NCBI RefSeq assembly: GCF_032818155.1
Contig: NZ_CP102589.1
Span: 1,970,001 to 2,034,000, forward strand
DNA length: 64,000 nt
Direction: 5' to 3'
From: Niallia taxi
GTDB taxonomy: Bacteria > Bacillota > Bacilli > Bacillales > Cytobacillaceae
Shown here one piece after another: positions 7,505 to 61,512 of the stretch (positions are counted from its first letter, which is position 1; every line of letters begins with the position of its first letter). A program made the translations under genes and the position numbers. The notes under the pieces are model-generated. The model was not told the DNA's origin and ran no database searches. It saw nothing but the letters and a program-made list of their open reading frames with translations.

Positions 7505-7540
7505 TAAAAAAAGGGCAGAATGAAATTTCTGCCTTTTTTA
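7505..7540. terminator. Bidirectional terminator between ypmS and the DUF4397 gene
   Basis: GGCAGAA-stem-TTCTGCC is flanked by A-rich and T-rich tracts usable from both sides. It serves convergent genes. Confidence 0.85.
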
Positions 7541-8293
7541 TATGGAAATCAGTAGTATTTCGGCGCTTACATCCGCTGAGGTAGCCTCTAGAATAAAGGC
7601 TGAATAAGCTTTATTTTCTTTTAATGTGAGTGGAGGAAAGCTTGCGAGCTTGCTGTTTGTTTCCGCATCCTTTGCTTCTAAGTAGACAGTCATAGGGTAA
7701 AGCCCAAGATAGGAAGTGGCCGCCTTTAAATGTAAATTAGGGAAAACGACATCGCCCTTTTGAACGGCAATATTTAATGCAGACATTTTTGGATGGAGAT
7801 GAATGATACGCAGCTTTGTTTCCGATGGATGAACAAAAGGGTCTTCTTGATAGGTGTAAAGCTTTAAGTAATTGTTTGCTGATTCTAAAAATGTAATGGT
7901 ATGAAAAATATTGCTCTCAACAAGAATTTTTTGGCTGCAAAGTGAATCAACCATTGCTCCTGTTTCATATATATCAACCTGATAGCGGCCGACTGGTAAT
8001 GTCATCTCATTTGTAACCGATTTAAAGGAGACCTCTTTAAACAGCTTTACTCCATTGATATAAATATCAACAACAGGCTTTTTGGCAGCGGTGTGGATGA
8101 ACCTTAGTTTGCCGTACTCTGTTTGCCTGTCTAAGTCTGTTGTTATCGAGTTTTGCGGCAAAGCTTTTCTAAGAACCTCGAGATGCTTTTGATAATAGTA
8201 GATATGGAGGTCTGGATTAGTATATTTATAATAATCACTTAGCAGATTGTACATTCCGGCTTCATTTAAGGAATTGTCTTCTTGTTTATGCAT
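7538..8293 (-). CDS. DUF4397 domain-containing protein
   Basis: The 251-residue protein has two repeats of the DUF4397 beta-sandwich, visible as KLRFIHTAAKKPVVDIYING and TKLRIIHLHPKMSALNIAV, with ALNIAVQKGDVVFPNL closing the second. The start is taken at the ATG at 8293, which is 8 nt from AGGAG; the GTG at 8302 directly abuts that site. No signal peptide is visible, which is unusual for DUF4397 proteins, many of which are exported. Function unknown. It is convergent with ypmS. Confidence 0.78.
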   Translation of the reverse strand: MHKQEDNSLNEAGMYNLLSDYYKYTNPDLHIYYYQKHLEVLRKALPQNSITTDLDRQTEYGKLRFIHTAAKKPVVDIYINGVKLFKEVSFKSVTNEMTLPVGRYQVDIYETGAMVDSLCSQKILVESNIFHTITFLESANNYLKLYTYQEDPFVHPSETKLRIIHLHPKMSALNIAVQKGDVVFPNLHLKAATSYLGLYPMTVYLEAKDAETNSKLASFPPLTLKENKAYSAFILEATSADVSAEILLISI

Positions 8294-8389
8294 GGTTTTC
8301 ACTCCTGTTTCCTAAAAGATGATAACAGTTTATGCATGCATTTAGATACAGTGCCTATTTTAAAAACAATCTTAAAAAGGTAAATTTTA

Positions 8390-8418
8390 TGTACAAATTA
8401 GAAATGATGGAATATAAT
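8390..8418 (+). promoter_or_regulatory. Candidate promoter of the rsgA leader
   Basis: TGTACA (8390-8395), 17 bp, then a perfect TATAAT (8413-8418). This puts the transcript start about 25 nt before the leader peptide ORF. Confidence 0.5.
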
Positions 8419-8450
8419 AGATATTAACTACAACGGAAAGGGTGATGACG

Positions 8451-8525
8451 ATGAAAACAACAATCTGTGTAAATAAGGCAATTGCATTCATCGTACAGCC
8501 CACTGCTTACTTGCTTATTAAGTAA
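8451..8525 (+). CDS. Leader peptide of the rsgA attenuator
   Basis: This 24-codon ORF starts MKTTICVNKAIAF and ends in LLIK, with a strong GGAAAGGGTGAT site 5 nt upstream of the ATG. Its 3' half contains the 5' arm of a long-range RNA pairing, and its stop codon lies inside a small hairpin (CTTACTT/AAGTAAG). This is what one expects if ribosome position on the leader controls downstream structure. I do not recognise the peptide from any described leader. Coding is inferred from ribosome binding site, codon structure and RNA architecture. Confidence 0.6.
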   Translation: MKTTICVNKAIAFIVQPTAYLLIK

Positions 8526-8593
8526 GTATCTTTTATCCTGCATATTTAATGCATGAGAAAACCATGGGCTGTACGTCGCTTATGGTTTTTTAT
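8492..8593 (+). promoter_or_regulatory. Ribosome-coupled transcription attenuator upstream of rsgA
   Basis: CGTACAGCCCA (8492-8502, inside the leader ORF) is perfectly complementary to TGGGCTGTACG (8565-8575). The second arm lies within the loop of a terminator hairpin, AAAACCAT (8558-8565) / ATGGTTTT (8582-8589) plus T run. Two small hairpins sit between the arms (8506-8526 and 8539-8553). The 11-bp stem and the terminator cannot comfortably coexist. A ribosome reaching the leader stop would cover the first arm and free the terminator; slowed or stalled translation would leave the arm free to block it. Confidence 0.6.
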
Positions 8594-8620
8594 TATGCTT
8601 AAAAAATGGAGGATATACAA

Positions 8621-9679
8621 ATGGATTTGAATAAAATTGGGTTTAATGAAAATATAAACAATGCTTTAGAAAAATTAAACAAGGAAGGTCTCATTGCAGG
8701 ACGGGTTGCTTTAGAGCATAAGAGACTTTATCGAGTATATACGGAAATTGGAGAATTATTGTGTGAGGTTTCCGGAAAACTGTCCTTTGATGCTGTTGGC
8801 AGAGATGATTATCCAGCTGTAGGCGATTGGGTGGCTGTATTGCCTCGTAATGGTGAAGGGAAAGGGACCATCATTTCCGTTCTTCCAAGGAAAAGTAAGT
8901 TTTCCAGGAAAGCAGCAGGAATGACAACAGAGGAGCAAATTGTCGCCGCAAATGTCGATACTATTTTTCTTGTCAATTCCCTAAATGAGGATTTGAATTT
9001 ACGTAGGATAGAAAGATACTTGACGCTGACATGGGAAAGCGGAGCAAATCCAGTGATTTTGCTAACGAAATCTGAGCTTGCTGAAAATGCGGCAGACAAA
9101 ATTGCCAGTGTGGAATCCATTGCATTTGGTGTTCCAGTTATCGCCATAAGTGTTCATGGAAAACAGGGACTTGAGTCCTTAAATGATTATTTGCTTCCGC
9201 AAAAAACAATTGGGTTATTAGGCTCCTCAGGTGTTGGAAAGTCAACGTTGACTAATTATCTGCTTGGTTATGAAAAGCAGTTAGTTCAGAACATTAGAGA
9301 GGACGATGATAAGGGGCGCCATACAACGACATATCGAGAAATGGTTGTGCTGCCTAATGGCTGTGTTCTGATTGATACACCAGGAATGAGAGAGCTGCAG
9401 CTTTGGAACAGTGATTCAGGTTTATCAGAAAGCTTTACAGATGTCGAGCAGCTTGCAACAAAATGCCGATTCAGGGACTGCAGCCATATAGGTGAAGCAG
9501 GTTGTGCTGTTAAGCAGGCGGTAGAGGAAGGAAGATTGGAAGAGGCACGTCTCAACAGCTATTTCAAGATGAACAGAGAGCTCGCCTATTTGGAAAGAAG
9601 GCAAAGCAAAAAAGCACAGGCAGATGAAAAGAAGAAATGGAAAAGTATTCACAAAGCGATAAAAGCAAAGCGTAAATAA
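8621..9679 (+). CDS. rsgA: Ribosome small-subunit-dependent GTPase A (RsgA), probable paralogue
   Basis: This is a circularly permuted GTPase acting in 30S maturation. An N-terminal OB fold is followed by the permuted motifs: TKSE (G4, about residue 148), GSSGVGKST (G1, about 201) and DTPGMR (G3, about 252). The C-terminal zinc knuckle Cx4CxHx5C begins near C282. The ATG at 8621 is 8 nt after GGAGGAT. The usual housekeeping rsgA lies with prkC/rpe/spoVM; this copy stands alone behind an attenuator, so it is probably a second, conditionally expressed RsgA. The 352-residue length is longer than the usual ~300, mostly as a basic C-terminal tail. Confidence 0.88.
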   Translation: MDLNKIGFNENINNALEKLNKEGLIAGRVALEHKRLYRVYTEIGELLCEVSGKLSFDAVGRDDYPAVGDWVAVLPRNGEGKGTIISVLPRKSKFSRKAAGMTTEEQIVAANVDTIFLVNSLNEDLNLRRIERYLTLTWESGANPVILLTKSELAENAADKIASVESIAFGVPVIAISVHGKQGLESLNDYLLPQKTIGLLGSSGVGKSTLTNYLLGYEKQLVQNIREDDDKGRHTTTYREMVVLPNGCVLIDTPGMRELQLWNSDSGLSESFTDVEQLATKCRFRDCSHIGEAGCAVKQAVEEGRLEEARLNSYFKMNRELAYLERRQSKKAQADEKKKWKSIHKAIKAKRK

Positions 9680-37509: not shown

Positions 37510-37548
37510 AGCAACAATTAAATAGTAAAGGACCACATTAAGTGGTCG

Positions 37549-37689
37549 CCTTCGGGGTAGGGTGAAATTCCCAACCGGCGGTGATGAGCGTTCGTTTGCT
37601 CTAAGCCCGTGACCCGGCTTAAAAAATTTTTTAAGGCGGTGGATTTGGTGAGAAACCAAAGCCGACAGTATAGTCTGGATGGGAGAAGG
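37549..37689 (+). ncRNA. FMN riboswitch (RFN element)
   Basis: All signature segments are present in order: CCTTCGGGGTAGGGTGAAAT, CCAACCGGCGGT, GCTCTAAGCCCGTGACCCG, GGTGAGAAACCAAAGCCGAC and AGTATAGTCTGGATGGGAGA. P1 is closed by CCTTC/GAAGG. GGGAGA (37681-37686) can alternatively pair with TCTCCC (37857-37862) of the downstream terminator, giving an antiterminator when FMN is low. Confidence 0.96.
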
Positions 37690-37856
37690 AATAACAAAAG
37701 CTGCTGATTCATTATGTGGATTCAGTGTGTTTGGTGTGAGTATTGCTAACTTAGGTTCGCTTTTTTGACTATGGGCTAATTGTGTCCATAATTAAAACAG
37801 GTGTAGCTTTATTTAGTGAACCCACATACCAAAATGCGCCTTTATTTGTTATGTAA

Positions 37857-57466: not shown

Positions 57467-57949
57467 TTGACAAAATGTAAATAATAGGGTATTCTATTTC
57501 TTGTATGTATTTGAGGCAAGAACGGATTTGTACAATAAAAGTAAAAGATTTTGTGTAAAGTTATGTAGATGCAAAGCAACCAGGAACAGTTGAAATACAG
57601 AATAAACACCACTTTAACAATCTTCTCCAAAAATCACATTAAAATAATCTTCCATATGCGGATTAAACCCTTCCAAAAAATTATTCTCAGTTAATGTTAT
57701 TTTTGCCGCCGTTCTAAATTGATAGAACCTAAATTCACACTGGCACGGCCTCGGAGCCGTAAGGATGAAAGAGAGGTAGGGCTTTCGTTGTTTTAGGCAA
57801 TTGCACGAATTAGTAGTGCATTCCTTAAATATATGCCAATAAAAGTGCAAGATTTTACATAGGTCTACTTTCTTCATATAATAATGAACAAAGATCTATT
57901 GCAAGCACTCACCACTGGGCATCTCCTAAATACAGGAGATGCCTTTTTT
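57467..57949 (+). other. Promoter-to-terminator interval without a recognised gene
   Basis: TTGACA (57467-57472), 17 bp, TATTCT (57490-57495) would start a transcript near 57503. A strong terminator lies at 57917. The ~440 nt between has no plus-strand ORF with a ribosome binding site. It contains a GC-rich patch (57740-57780, with ACGGCCTCGGAGCCGTA). On the minus strand an 87-codon frame (57614-57877) ends plausibly but has no ribosome binding site. Candidate noncoding RNA or decayed gene. Confidence 0.3.
57917..57949 (+). terminator. Terminator of an unassigned transcript
   Basis: GGCATCTCCT-AAATAC-AGGAGATGCC plus six T, reading rightward, 740 bp beyond glpD. Confidence 0.88.
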
Positions 57950-57992: not shown

Positions 57993-58013
57993 TACCTAGT
58001 AAATAGATTCGTT

Positions 58014-58092
58014 TCACAGTGACTGACGACAATAATGGAATGAACCATATGGGAGCTGCGAAAAGGTGTATAGCCGGTCGTCTGGGCAAAAG
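58014..58092 (+). ncRNA. ZTP (pfl) riboswitch upstream of folD
   Basis: Conserved pfl-motif segments in order: AGTGACTGACG, TGGAATGAACCATATGGGAG, then after a variable loop AGCCGGTCGTCTGGGCA. The family senses ZTP/ZMP, the alarm for 10-formyl-THF shortage, and is typically placed before folD, glyA or pur genes. A small hairpin, AAAGG/CCTTT, follows directly and may be the switch element near the ribosome binding site. Confidence 0.88.
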
Positions 58093-58131
58093 GTGATAAA
58101 CCTTTCTAACACAATACCTGGAGGGATATAC

Positions 58132-59007: not shown

Positions 59008-59160
59008 GTATATAACGCTTGTAAGTTCGGTATATGTTTTTTAAGGATTGTTGGTCATGGTTGTAAATACAGCCTATGTCCGAAAAGGTAGCGATGCTTC
59101 ACTGATTCCTAAGATTTATATAAGTTCTTAAAGGTGTAACACAATTTTGGAGGTTTTACA

Positions 59161-59361
59161 ATGAACACAGGTAAAGTAAAATGGTTTAATGCAGAAAAAG
59201 GTTTCGGTTTCATCGAGTCTACTGAAGGACAAGACGTATTCGTTCACTTCTCCGCTATCCAATCAGAAGGTTTCAAAACTTTAGAAGAAGGCCAAGAAGT
59301 AACTTTCGAAATCGTTGAAGGTAACCGTGGACCTCAAGCTTCTAACGTAAACAAAGCTTAA
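59161..59361 (+). CDS. cspD: Cold-shock protein CspD-like
   Basis: The 66-residue OB-fold protein has RNP1 KGFGFIES and RNP2 DVFVHFSAI. It binds single-stranded RNA/DNA and prevents secondary structure in the cold. TTGGAGGT precedes the ATG. Closest in wording ([20 protein letters not shown]) to B. subtilis CspD; the paralogue letter is uncertain. Confidence 0.95.
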
Positions 59362-59374
59362 TAATTTTTAGATT

Positions 59375-59411
59375 AAAGGTGATGCCTTTCCTTAATGCAT
59401 CACCTTTTTTT
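59375..59411 (+). terminator. Terminator after cspD
   Basis: AAAGGTGATGC-loop-GCATCACCTTTTTTT. Confidence 0.92.
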
Positions 59412-59693: not shown

Positions 59694-61160
59694 TTGACGA
59701 CTTTTTCAGATTTTAATTTAAGCAGCAGTTTAGAAAAAGCATTATCCAATATGGGTTTTGAAGAGCCAACACCAATTCAAGCACAGGCGATTCCGATTGG
59801 TCTTGCAGGTAAAGATATGATTGGACAGGCACAAACAGGAACAGGTAAAACAACAGCATTCGGTGTTCCACTTTTGGAAAAAATCGAAGTTGGTAAAGCT
59901 GTTCAAGGTCTTGTTATCGCTCCAACTAGAGAATTGGCTGTACAGGTTGCAGAAGAACTTAACCGTATCGGTGCAGTAAAAGGTATCCGTACATTGCCAA
60001 TTTATGGTGGACAAGATATTAACCGCCAAATTCGTGGTTTAAAGAAAAAGCCAGAAATTATTGCGGCAACTCCTGGACGTCTTATCGACCATATTGAAAG
60101 AAAAACAATTCGTTTGCAAGATACAAAAATGATCGTTTTGGATGAAGCAGATGAAATGCTAAATATGGGCTTCATCGAAGATATCGAAAGAATCTTGAGT
60201 GAAACACCAAAAACACGTCAAACTTTACTTTTCTCAGCAACAATGCCAAAAAGAATTCAATCATTGGCAGAGCGCTTCATGGTGGAGCCAGAGCTTGTTA
60301 AGGTTAAAGCGAAAGAAATGACTGTTACAAATATTGAACAACACTTTATCGAGCTGCAAGAACGCCAAAAGTTTGATGTACTATGCAGTCTTCTTGATAT
60401 CCAATCACCAGATCTTGCGATTGTATTCGGAAGAACGAAAAAACGTGTTGATGAAGTAGTTGAAGGATTAATCAAACGTGGATATTCTGCTGAAGGAATC
60501 CATGGTGATATTCCTCAAGGTAAAAGGGATCAAGTAATCCGTCGCTTCAAGGAGCAAACAATTGATATCATGGTAGCAACAGATGTAGCTGCCCGCGGAT
60601 TGGATATTAGCGGTGTAACACATGTTTACAACTTTGATATTCCACAAGATCCAGAAAGCTATGTTCACCGAATTGGTCGTACTGGCCGTGCTGGTAAAAA
60701 AGGTTATGCTGTAACATTTGTATCTCCAAGAGAAGTAGATCACCTTCGCATCATTGAAAATGTAACGAAGAAAAAAATGGTTAAAAACCCAATTCCATCA
60801 ACTACAGATGTATTGGCAGGAAACCAACAGGCAACAATCAACAAAATCCAAAAAACGGTTGAAGAGAATCAATTCGCAGAATACAAGCGTCTTGCAGAAA
60901 CTTTACTGGAAGAAACGGATTCTGTTACATTGCTTGCAAGTGCATTAAAACTTCTTACAAAAGAGCCGGATGCAACGCCAGTTAGATTGACTGCTGTTGA
61001 ACCGCTTCGTTCTAAAAAGCCAAAAGGTGACCGTTCTGGCGGCGGCGGACGTCGTCGTAGTGGTGACAGAGGCGGACGCGGATATGATCGCAACCGTGGC
61101 GGCGGCAACGGCGGCGGCGGAGAAAGAAGAAGCAGAAACAGAAATAGAACTAGAGACTAA
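59694..61160 (+). CDS. cshA: DEAD-box RNA helicase CshA
   Basis: The 488-residue protein has Q motif [15 protein letters not shown], Walker [32 protein letters not shown] and [10 protein letters not shown]. The tail after about residue 440 is Gly/Arg-rich ([19 protein letters not shown]), giving RNA affinity. CshA acts in cold adaptation, ribosome assembly and the RNA degradosome. TTG start 2 nt past GAAGGAGGAAAAAG. It stands between two csp genes, as often in Bacilli. Confidence 0.95.
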
Positions 61161-61268
61161 TAAAAAATATTTTCTGGATTATGTTTAATTTCTCCTCATA
61201 ATGGTTAAAATGTACAAATGAAGGATATAAATGTATATCCTGGTTATTTAAATCTAGGAGGCAATAAA

Positions 61269-61469
61269 ATGGCAACAGGTAAAGTAAAATGGTTTAACTC
61301 AGAAAAAGGTTTTGGATTTATCGAAGTAGAAGGTGGAGATGATGTATTCGTACATTTTTCTGCAATTCAAACAGACGGTTTCAAAACATTAGATGAAGGC
61401 CAAGAAGTTAACTTTGATATTGAAGATGGCGCACGTGGCCCACAAGCTGTTAACGTAACGAAACTTTAA
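61269..61469 (+). CDS. Cold-shock protein CspB/CspC-like
   Basis: The 66-residue protein has [30 protein letters not shown] and a C-terminal [17 protein letters not shown] lies 8 nt before the ATG. It is the second csp within 2.2 kb. There is only a short leader after cshA and no clear terminator between them, so partial co-transcription with cshA is possible. Confidence 0.94.
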
Positions 61470-61481
61470 TATGCTTATCTC

Positions 61482-61512
61482 AAAGAACCCTGCATGTACA
61501 GGGTTCTTTTTC
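61482..61512 (+). terminator. Terminator after the second csp
   Basis: AAAGAACCCTG-CATGTA-CAGGGTTCTTTTT. Confidence 0.92.

Follow-up and report, generated by a model that had tools for sequence, protein, structure and literature searches.

A probable ribosome-mediated transcription attenuator upstream of a second rsgA gene in Niallia taxi

Results

Genes and features upstream of rsgA2

The DNA analyzed here, called the window below, is a stretch of 64,000 nucleotides from Niallia taxi in which the gene for an RsgA paralogue (RsgA2) is preceded by a short leader reading frame, a perfect long-range complement, and an intrinsic terminator (Table 1). The leader frame has the ribosome-binding site AAAGGGTGATG 5' of its ATG, and arm 1 begins 41 nt past the A of that ATG. 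The transcript would start near position 8425, just 5' of the leader ribosome-binding site. Note that the region holds six promoter-like sites versus 7.1 in shuffles, which is not above chance. In 85 of the 103 aligned leaders described below, the best promoter-like site agrees with the consensus at 10 or 11 of 12 positions, and in 91 of the 103 its -10 element ends 31-34 nt ahead of the leader ATG, both being counts without a shuffled control.

Table 1. Coordinates of the features upstream of and including rsgA2, and of other features found in the window.
Feature	Position	Strand	Basis or remark
Promoter-like TGTACA-17-TATAAT	8390..8418	+	10/12 consensus matches
Arm 0, leader ribosome-binding site and start codon	8440..8455	+	Minimum-energy fold, covariation, swap test
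Leader frame, 24 codons, MKTTICVNKAIAFIVQPTAYLLIK	8451..8525	+	ATG 8451 to stop 8525
Arm 1, CGTACAGCCCA, antiterminator 5' strand, within the leader frame	8492..8502	+	
Arm 2, TGGGCTGTACG, antiterminator 3' strand	8565..8575	+	Perfect 11-nt complement of arm 1
Intrinsic terminator, stem 8559-8569/8578-8588 and T run	8559..8591	+	
rsgA paralogue (RsgA2), 352 aa, controlled gene	8621..9679	+	TIGR00157, PF03193, tree
DUF4397 protein, divergent neighbor of rsgA2	7538-8302	-	PF14344
FMN riboswitch	37544-37694		Rfam
BsrC small RNA match	57715-57801	-	Rfam, 90.9 bits
ZMP/ZTP riboswitch	58009-58094		Rfam
Two cspA thermoregulator matches, ~2 kb apart	59109-59408 and 61137-61512		Rfam

Three mutually exclusive helices are encoded in 8425-8593: an anti-antiterminator, an antiterminator, and a terminator. 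In the fold of 8425-8600, the anti-antiterminator pairs 8440-8443 with 8498-8501 and 8448-8455 with 8487-8494, so that the helix between arm 0 and arm 1 is overall 8440-8455/8487-8501; the antiterminator pairs arm 1 with arm 2. The terminator-like hairpin spans 8556-8591, has 14 pairs, and leads into the T run. A preliminary description of this DNA had listed the 24-codon frame with its ribosome-binding site, the 11-nt complement, and the terminator, all of which are present as described, but had missed the pairing of arm 1 with the leader ribosome-binding site and start codon. It had also placed arm 2 in the terminator loop; this is true of part of the arm, but its first bases (8565-8569) belong to the 5' strand of the stem. 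Antiterminator and terminator thus compete for the same bases, and since arm 2 starts inside that 5' strand, pairing of arm 1 with arm 2 would directly destroy the terminator.

The fold of 8425-8600 has a z of -4.0, and none of 200 shuffles was equally stable. Rfam gave no family at gathering score for the leader region, even when matches in 8380-8640 with E up to 1 were included; the best of these was RAGATH-9, on the opposite strand, at 23.3 bits versus a gathering score of 75.2.

RsgA2 and the housekeeping RsgA

RsgA2 is, by its domains, a member of the RsgA GTPase family, scoring 172.4 bits with TIGR00157 (cut-off 100) and 170.5 bits with PF03193, RsgA_GTPase (cut-off 30); it is 95% identical to the paralogue in a Niallia taxi record. 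Of the 13 solved-structure sequences that it matched, 12 were of the RsgA/YjeQ/EngC type and the remaining one was the GTPase Der. PADLOC returned two weak matches, both over the P-loop stretch of RsgA2. RsgA proteins act in 30S maturation. At E up to 0.001, Pfam did not list RsgA_N for RsgA2, whose N-terminal domain may be a diverged form of it or a different one, whereas in the housekeeping RsgA of the same genome Pfam found RsgA_N (91 bits) as well as PF03193; the contacts that RsgA2 makes with the small subunit may therefore differ.

The two proteins are 31% identical within this genome. In a tree of 76 proteins, RsgA2 (59 rows) and the housekeeping form (17 rows) lie on opposite sides of a branch with 100/100 support, and phyla are mixed on the RsgA2 side. 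Because each protein was labeled by whichever query scored better, the tree tests the separation of the two forms and is not an independent annotation; long branches were flagged, among them L225, L227, L229, and L232. The last of these, a Streptomyces plasmid record, has its RsgA2-like gene near a Tn3-family transposase and a recombinase, a neighborhood that hints at mobility. A phage collection gave 28 matching records, 10 of which are named Listeria.

The housekeeping rsgA starts 15 nt past the gene for a PASTA-domain protein of the PrkC-like kind and is followed by the thiamin pyrophosphokinase gene; with a gap of 15 nt, there is no room for a leader. The check proposed in the preliminary description, for a second, housekeeping rsgA elsewhere in the genome, thus turned up such a gene, in a separate clade and without a leader, and the naming of the controlled gene as an rsgA paralogue is borne out by both domain models and the tree.

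Covariation and swap tests of the three helices

Upstream regions were collected for many of the paralogues found in relatives. Removal of eight duplicates left 145 unique ones, 103 of which aligned as a terminator-type core; in 13 of these, the leader start was placed manually or with the help of another search. The 42 set aside include distant relatives with other arms (e.g., L025, L028, L045, L135, and L136), L010, and L012, in which the same element has its terminator further upstream; no obvious element was found in others, among them L016, L019, L022, L134, L137, and L139-L146.

For the 103, the leader and the terminator were aligned as separate pieces, and structure was not used. In this alignment arm 1 and arm 2 are paired in 985 of 1085 cells; when one arm is slid by 1-3 columns, only 61 to 499 of 765 to 1026 cells are paired. 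Across the 56 distinct arm combinations, 535 of 616 positions are paired, versus a shuffled mean of 508.5 (sd 3.7), the top of 2000 shuffles being 521.

An independent count scored a tool-made alignment of 40 sequences for three structures taken from the Niallia taxi leader; L013 had been removed from the 41 references because of its long spacer, and L004 is misaligned at arm 1, which counts against pairing. The antiterminator is paired in 92.5% of 424 cells, with changes on both sides in 8 of 11 pairs (18 cells), and none of 500 shuffles was as high on any of five measures. For the terminator, 96.9% of 426 cells are paired and 14 cells are changed on both sides; no shuffle in 500 was as high on four measures, and one was on the fifth. 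The anti-antiterminator is paired in 79.1% of 479 cells and has 53 cells changed on both sides versus a shuffled mean of 21.3, with 0/500 shuffles as high on three of five measures, but it was not above shuffles in the number of pairs changed on both sides (5 versus 4.1; 101/500 as high) or in further pair types (108/500 as high). Its third part, 8452-8455/8487-8490, is paired in only 63.1% of cells. Slid controls were far lower for all three helices on cells paired and on covariation score; kinship can, of course, inflate shuffle tests, and a structure taken from one aligned sequence tends to beat slid versions of itself.

In the swap test, the duplex energy of each sequence's own arms was compared with that obtained using the arms of other sequences. 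It used 51 representatives, each <80% identical position by position, drawn from 110 sequences (the 103 aligned and seven hand-chosen distant ones). Arm 0:arm 1 gave -19.36 kcal/mol with own arms versus -14.62 kcal/mol swapped, and arm 1:arm 2 gave -23.42 versus -19.41 kcal/mol, 0/5000 permutations being as good in either case. In the control pairing, arm 0:arm 2, own arms were no better than swapped ones (-11.51 and -11.51). Distant relatives have arms that are unlike those of Niallia taxi yet match each other, as in Lysinibacillus L028 (GCAATTCGG/CCGAATTGC) and Kurthia L025 (CATCTTTTTAG/CTAAAAAGATG), although these match by construction, having been found by a best-complement search. Covariation of the 11-bp stem, which the preliminary description had suggested looking for, is therefore present and exceeds the shuffled, slid, and swapped controls.

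Uniqueness of the element

A detector was built that required a short frame, a Shine-Dalgarno match of ≥5 bases for that frame, and perfect complementarity over ≥9 nt to the 5' strand of a terminator lying downstream. The window and 43 loci around rsgA2 relatives were scanned on both strands, which together make up 700,394 bases. Its 14 matches fell at 12 loci, two of which were counted twice, and all were rsgA2 leaders; there were none elsewhere in the 700,394 bases. The detector is strict and misses elements whose arms are shorter or whose ribosome-binding site is weaker, e.g., L004-L006 and L043. An exact search of the 5.29 Mb genome for the 9-nt core of the two arms at native spacing found a single place, the rsgA2 leader, which appears on both strands since the arms complement each other. 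A looser arm-pair pattern had matches in 74 of 151 family genomes, many at rsgA2 leaders and others elsewhere.

The leader frame is kept, but not its peptide

None of the 103 aligned sequences, which include Niallia taxi and were chosen for terminator-type architecture from the 145 unique upstreams, has a stop codon in the leader frame before the end of arm 1. The core of arm 1 starts 43 to 52 nt past the leader ATG and falls in each of the three reading frames (81, 17, and 5 cases). In 300 close pairs, differences before arm 1 numbered 528, 696, and 645 at codon positions 1, 2, and 3, respectively (0.28, 0.37, and 0.35); there was no third-position excess in these pairs and so no sign of selection on the peptide. 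Neither a drug-specific nor a conserved stall motif was found in the leader peptide. Peptide-specific sensing was rejected as the main model because the third codon position showed no such excess. With neither a stall motif nor a selected peptide, the leader is not filed with the arrest-peptide leaders (the erm, msrD, and hflXr class); it may still respond to drugs. Since the frame is kept and the peptide is not, we argue that the leader is a ribosome track, with a trigger independent of any one nascent peptide. Conservation of the leader in relatives, another check named in the preliminary description, thus holds for the frame and its position but not for the peptide.

Predicted folding states and proposed switch

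The minimum-energy fold of the free Niallia taxi leader consists of the anti-antiterminator and the terminator (-50.0 kcal/mol). When 8436-8469 is held open, as by a ribosome on the first codons, the minimum-energy fold becomes the antiterminator, without being forced. In predicted folding of the 103 leaders, the terminator dominates in 101 in the free state and in all 103 with arm 1 covered. With the start covered, equilibrium folding gives the antiterminator in 54 and keeps the terminator in 49; for the latter, kinetics may matter, or the model may be too simple.

On the strength of sequence comparison and these folding models, we think it very probable that a vmlR-like ribosome-mediated transcription attenuator controls the RsgA paralogue in Niallia taxi. 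The reading as a leader-peptide transcription attenuator, already made in the preliminary description, is supported by the covarying stems, the kept leader frame, and the second, housekeeping rsgA. Without translation, arm 1 would be held by the leader ribosome-binding site, leaving arm 2 free and allowing the terminator to form; a ribosome running freely through the leader would likewise lead to termination, arm 1 being either rebound by the ribosome-binding site or hidden beneath the ribosome. Transcription in this default state would stop near 8592. A ribosome halted within about the first nine codons would cover arm 0 and leave arm 1 exposed, which would then capture arm 2, block the terminator, and permit rsgA2 to be transcribed. 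The ribosome footprint reaches ~16 nt ahead of the P-site codon, and halts at roughly codons 1-9 would therefore leave arm 1 of Niallia taxi free. The lack of peptide conservation makes it probable that any early ribosome that slows or halts serves as the trigger, rather than one nascent-peptide signal, and an inhibitor, assembly stress, or cold stress could probably each provide it; we infer that drugs would induce the gene. During the triggering stress, small subunits would be the target of the RsgA-type GTPase.

Distribution among relatives

A second, closer RsgA paralogue is present besides the housekeeping copy in about 110 of 151 family genomes, and a class-wide protein search gave a match at E < 1e-70 in about 87 of 200 genomes (both table counts). 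Under a fixed rule, a leader frame was found in 177/213 unique rsgA2 upstreams, versus 26/191 upstreams of other genes and 3/15 of housekeeping rsgA, the housekeeping gene having been recognized in 15 of 17 loci for this comparison; demanding a stronger ribosome-binding site gave 98/213, 3/191, and 2/15, respectively. The 36 rsgA2 upstreams that fail the rule comprise some with a weaker ribosome-binding site and some without a visible leader.

Among 69 class-wide upstreams, a script found the leader frame in 55, and several more were seen by eye; the 14 without a scripted leader are L166, L167, L170, L181, L206-L209, L211, L212, L214, and L220-L222. Leader frames before rsgA2 were also recognized by eye in Listeria, Brevibacillus marinus, Peptoclostridium, Cetobacterium, Leptolyngbya, Melainabacteria, and Armatimonadota records (L225, L226, L228, L229, L230, L023, L029, and L039); inspection by eye found none in Vibrio L227, Acidobacteria L034, or Flexithrix L035.

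Between the attenuator and rsgA2, L013, L014, L015, and L017 have another terminator-like hairpin (ACCATCGG..CCGGTGGT, followed by a T run), possibly a tandem terminator. L143, L144, L145, and L146 have a further RsgA copy that is 43-45% identical to the RsgA2 query; scripts gave no convincing leader element for these extra copies, the candidate in L146 being ambiguous, with a weak ribosome-binding site.

Putative translational variants in other Bacilli

Twenty-one leaders without an obvious terminator were picked by hand and cut to 16 representatives. In this group, pairing of arm 1 with the leader ribosome-binding site scored -15.82 with own versus -13.76 with swapped arms (2/5000 permutations), and arm 1:arm 2 scored -27.95 versus -24.31 (0/5000). 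Arm 2 could also mask GGAGGAATCC, the ribosome-binding site before rsgA; for this pairing, own and swapped energies were -15.22 and -14.81 (1026/5000), i.e., no covariation signal was found in the group, in which the arm 2 and GGAGGAATCC sides are both nearly invariant.

Single-structure folds were inspected for four leaders. L165 and L172 switch in the manner of ermC, with segments 1:2 and 3:4 paired when free and 2:3 paired when the start is occupied, and L159 and L178 show no clear switch. The predicted mean opening of the rsgA ribosome-binding site was unchanged over the 21 leaders, at 0.33 free versus 0.35 with a ribosome on the leader start. Given the mixed single folds and this unchanged accessibility, it is likely, but not proven, that these rsgA2 leaders of other Bacilli resemble translational attenuators of the ermC type. 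A compact version was seen in L194-L204, where 2-6 nt separate the end of the leader frame from the ribosome-binding site of rsgA; in those looked at, the 3' end of the frame is complementary to that site.

Discussion

Alternative explanations

The arrangement might be nothing but a plain upstream terminator and a chance complement with no regulation, as short perfect repeats and terminators can be found in any genome. The confinement of detector matches to rsgA2 leaders, together with the covariation and swap tests, makes this scarcely credible. A nutritional attenuator, in which the leader senses a shortage of one charged tRNA as in trp or cys leaders, would have the same general architecture of leader frame, antiterminator, and terminator. 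We nevertheless regard it as quite improbable: the leader peptides vary widely among relatives, with no shared single-residue run visible by eye, the differences between close pairs are spread about evenly over the codon positions, and rsgA2 is not a biosynthetic gene. The three helices would also permit a switch thrown by a ligand, a protein, or temperature, independently of translation of the small frame. Such a trigger is very hard to reconcile with a frame that spans arm 1 in every aligned leader even though arm 1 falls in three reading frames, or with the retention of the leader frame in other lineages while the apparent mode of output changes; nor does any Rfam family reach its gathering score here.

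A feedback on ribosome supply deserves somewhat more weight but is still unlikely. The leader would then measure initiation-competent 30S subunits, and a shortage of these would raise RsgA2, in keeping with the role of RsgA proteins in 30S maturation. According to PMC9226507, moreover, a deletion of cshA that impairs ribosome assembly induces vmlR. However, the untranslated rsgA2 leader is predicted to be terminated, its ribosome-binding site itself holding arm 1; a simple lack of initiation should therefore repress the gene, and only halted or slow ribosomes should induce it.

Possible role of RsgA2

We know of no purpose assigned to the second RsgA in Bacilli. A ribosome-sensing attenuator before rsgA2 would indicate when the cell wants the protein, namely on ribosome stalling, and it makes the function of RsgA2 directly testable. 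This suggests that rsgA2 may belong to an overlooked defense against ribosome-blocking stress such as antibiotics. The stall-induced ribosome factors known to us are ABC-F proteins, HflXr, and methylases, and a small-subunit factor would join them.

A broader proposal can be put forward, tentatively and as somewhat less than an even chance. The RsgA2 clade would be an old, horizontally spread, ribosome-stall-induced rescue or protection factor for the small subunit, equivalent, on the 30S side, to HflXr and the ABC-F resistance proteins, under leader attenuators whose read-out (terminator, masked ribosome-binding site, or compact overlap) has been exchanged repeatedly while the sensing logic was kept. 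If so, Bacilli would have a class of tolerance genes that has escaped recognition, and Clostridia, Fusobacteria, Cyanobacteria, and Melainabacteria would be likely to have members of it as well. The sensor logic seems to be retained within one gene family while a transcriptional output is swapped for a translational one.

Comparison with known systems

The first Term-seq study reportedly dealt with antibiotic-responsive attenuators. The portions of the open-access literature available to us contained no prior report of an rsgA, yjeQ, or engC attenuator, and none was found in the accessible parts of PMC10117726, PMC7157823, PMC8632094, PMC6310831, PMC7927858, and PMC9290621; subscription papers lay mostly outside this search, and absence from print is thus not established. 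PMC9290621 does tabulate rsgA with the protein-synthesis genes of an antibiotic-producing organism. The mechanistic kind of the attenuator is known, and its rsgA2 gene and RNA case is, as far as searched, new.

The housekeeping RsgA/CpgA/YjeQ proteins have the GTPase family in common with RsgA2, as PF03193, found in both, and TIGR00157 indicate, but are unlike it in sequence and clade, in their visible RsgA_N, and in having no leader. In the ermC translational attenuator, segments 1:2 and 3:4 are paired in the free state and 2:3 upon occupation of the start. The variants L165 and L172 of other Bacilli fold alike; ermC, however, masks the ribosome-binding site of its gene, whereas the Niallia taxi version ends in a terminator, and the controlled genes differ.

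The closest likeness is to the vmlR leader of Bacillus subtilis which, in the available text of PMC9226507, similarly has an anti-antiterminator, an antiterminator, and a terminator, with the terminator as default, and a short frame whose stalled ribosome frees the antiterminator, a step that for rsgA2 would follow from the predicted structure; the product of vmlR acts on the ribosome, as that of rsgA2 presumably does. Besides responding to the assembly defect of the cshA deletion, vmlR is induced by drugs. The same text puts the vmlR frame at three codons in a bulge of the anti-antiterminator, with its ribosome-binding site upstream, whereas the rsgA2 frame is 24 codons long, its ribosome-binding site doubles as a pairing arm, and arm 1 lies late in the frame; the vmlR product is an ABC-F protein, and that of rsgA2 is an RsgA paralogue. 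The hflXr/rli80 leader of Listeria monocytogenes, as far as the accessible part of PMC6310831, which also names ermC, describes it, is also a transcription attenuator with a short frame (14 aa) before a GTPase paralogue of a ribosome factor. It carries an RLR macrolide motif, unlike the rsgA2 leader, for which no selected peptide was found, and its product is of the ribosome-splitting HflX kind rather than the RsgA kind. Finally, the available portion of PMC7157823 lists the Streptomyces coelicolor RsgA/EngC proteins SCO6149 and SCO5211 among paralogue pairs, one member being WblC- and tetracycline-dependent. By analogy, this pair would lend independent support to the idea of an antibiotic-responsive RsgA paralogue, although it is under another regulator and is likened to RsgA2 by family only.
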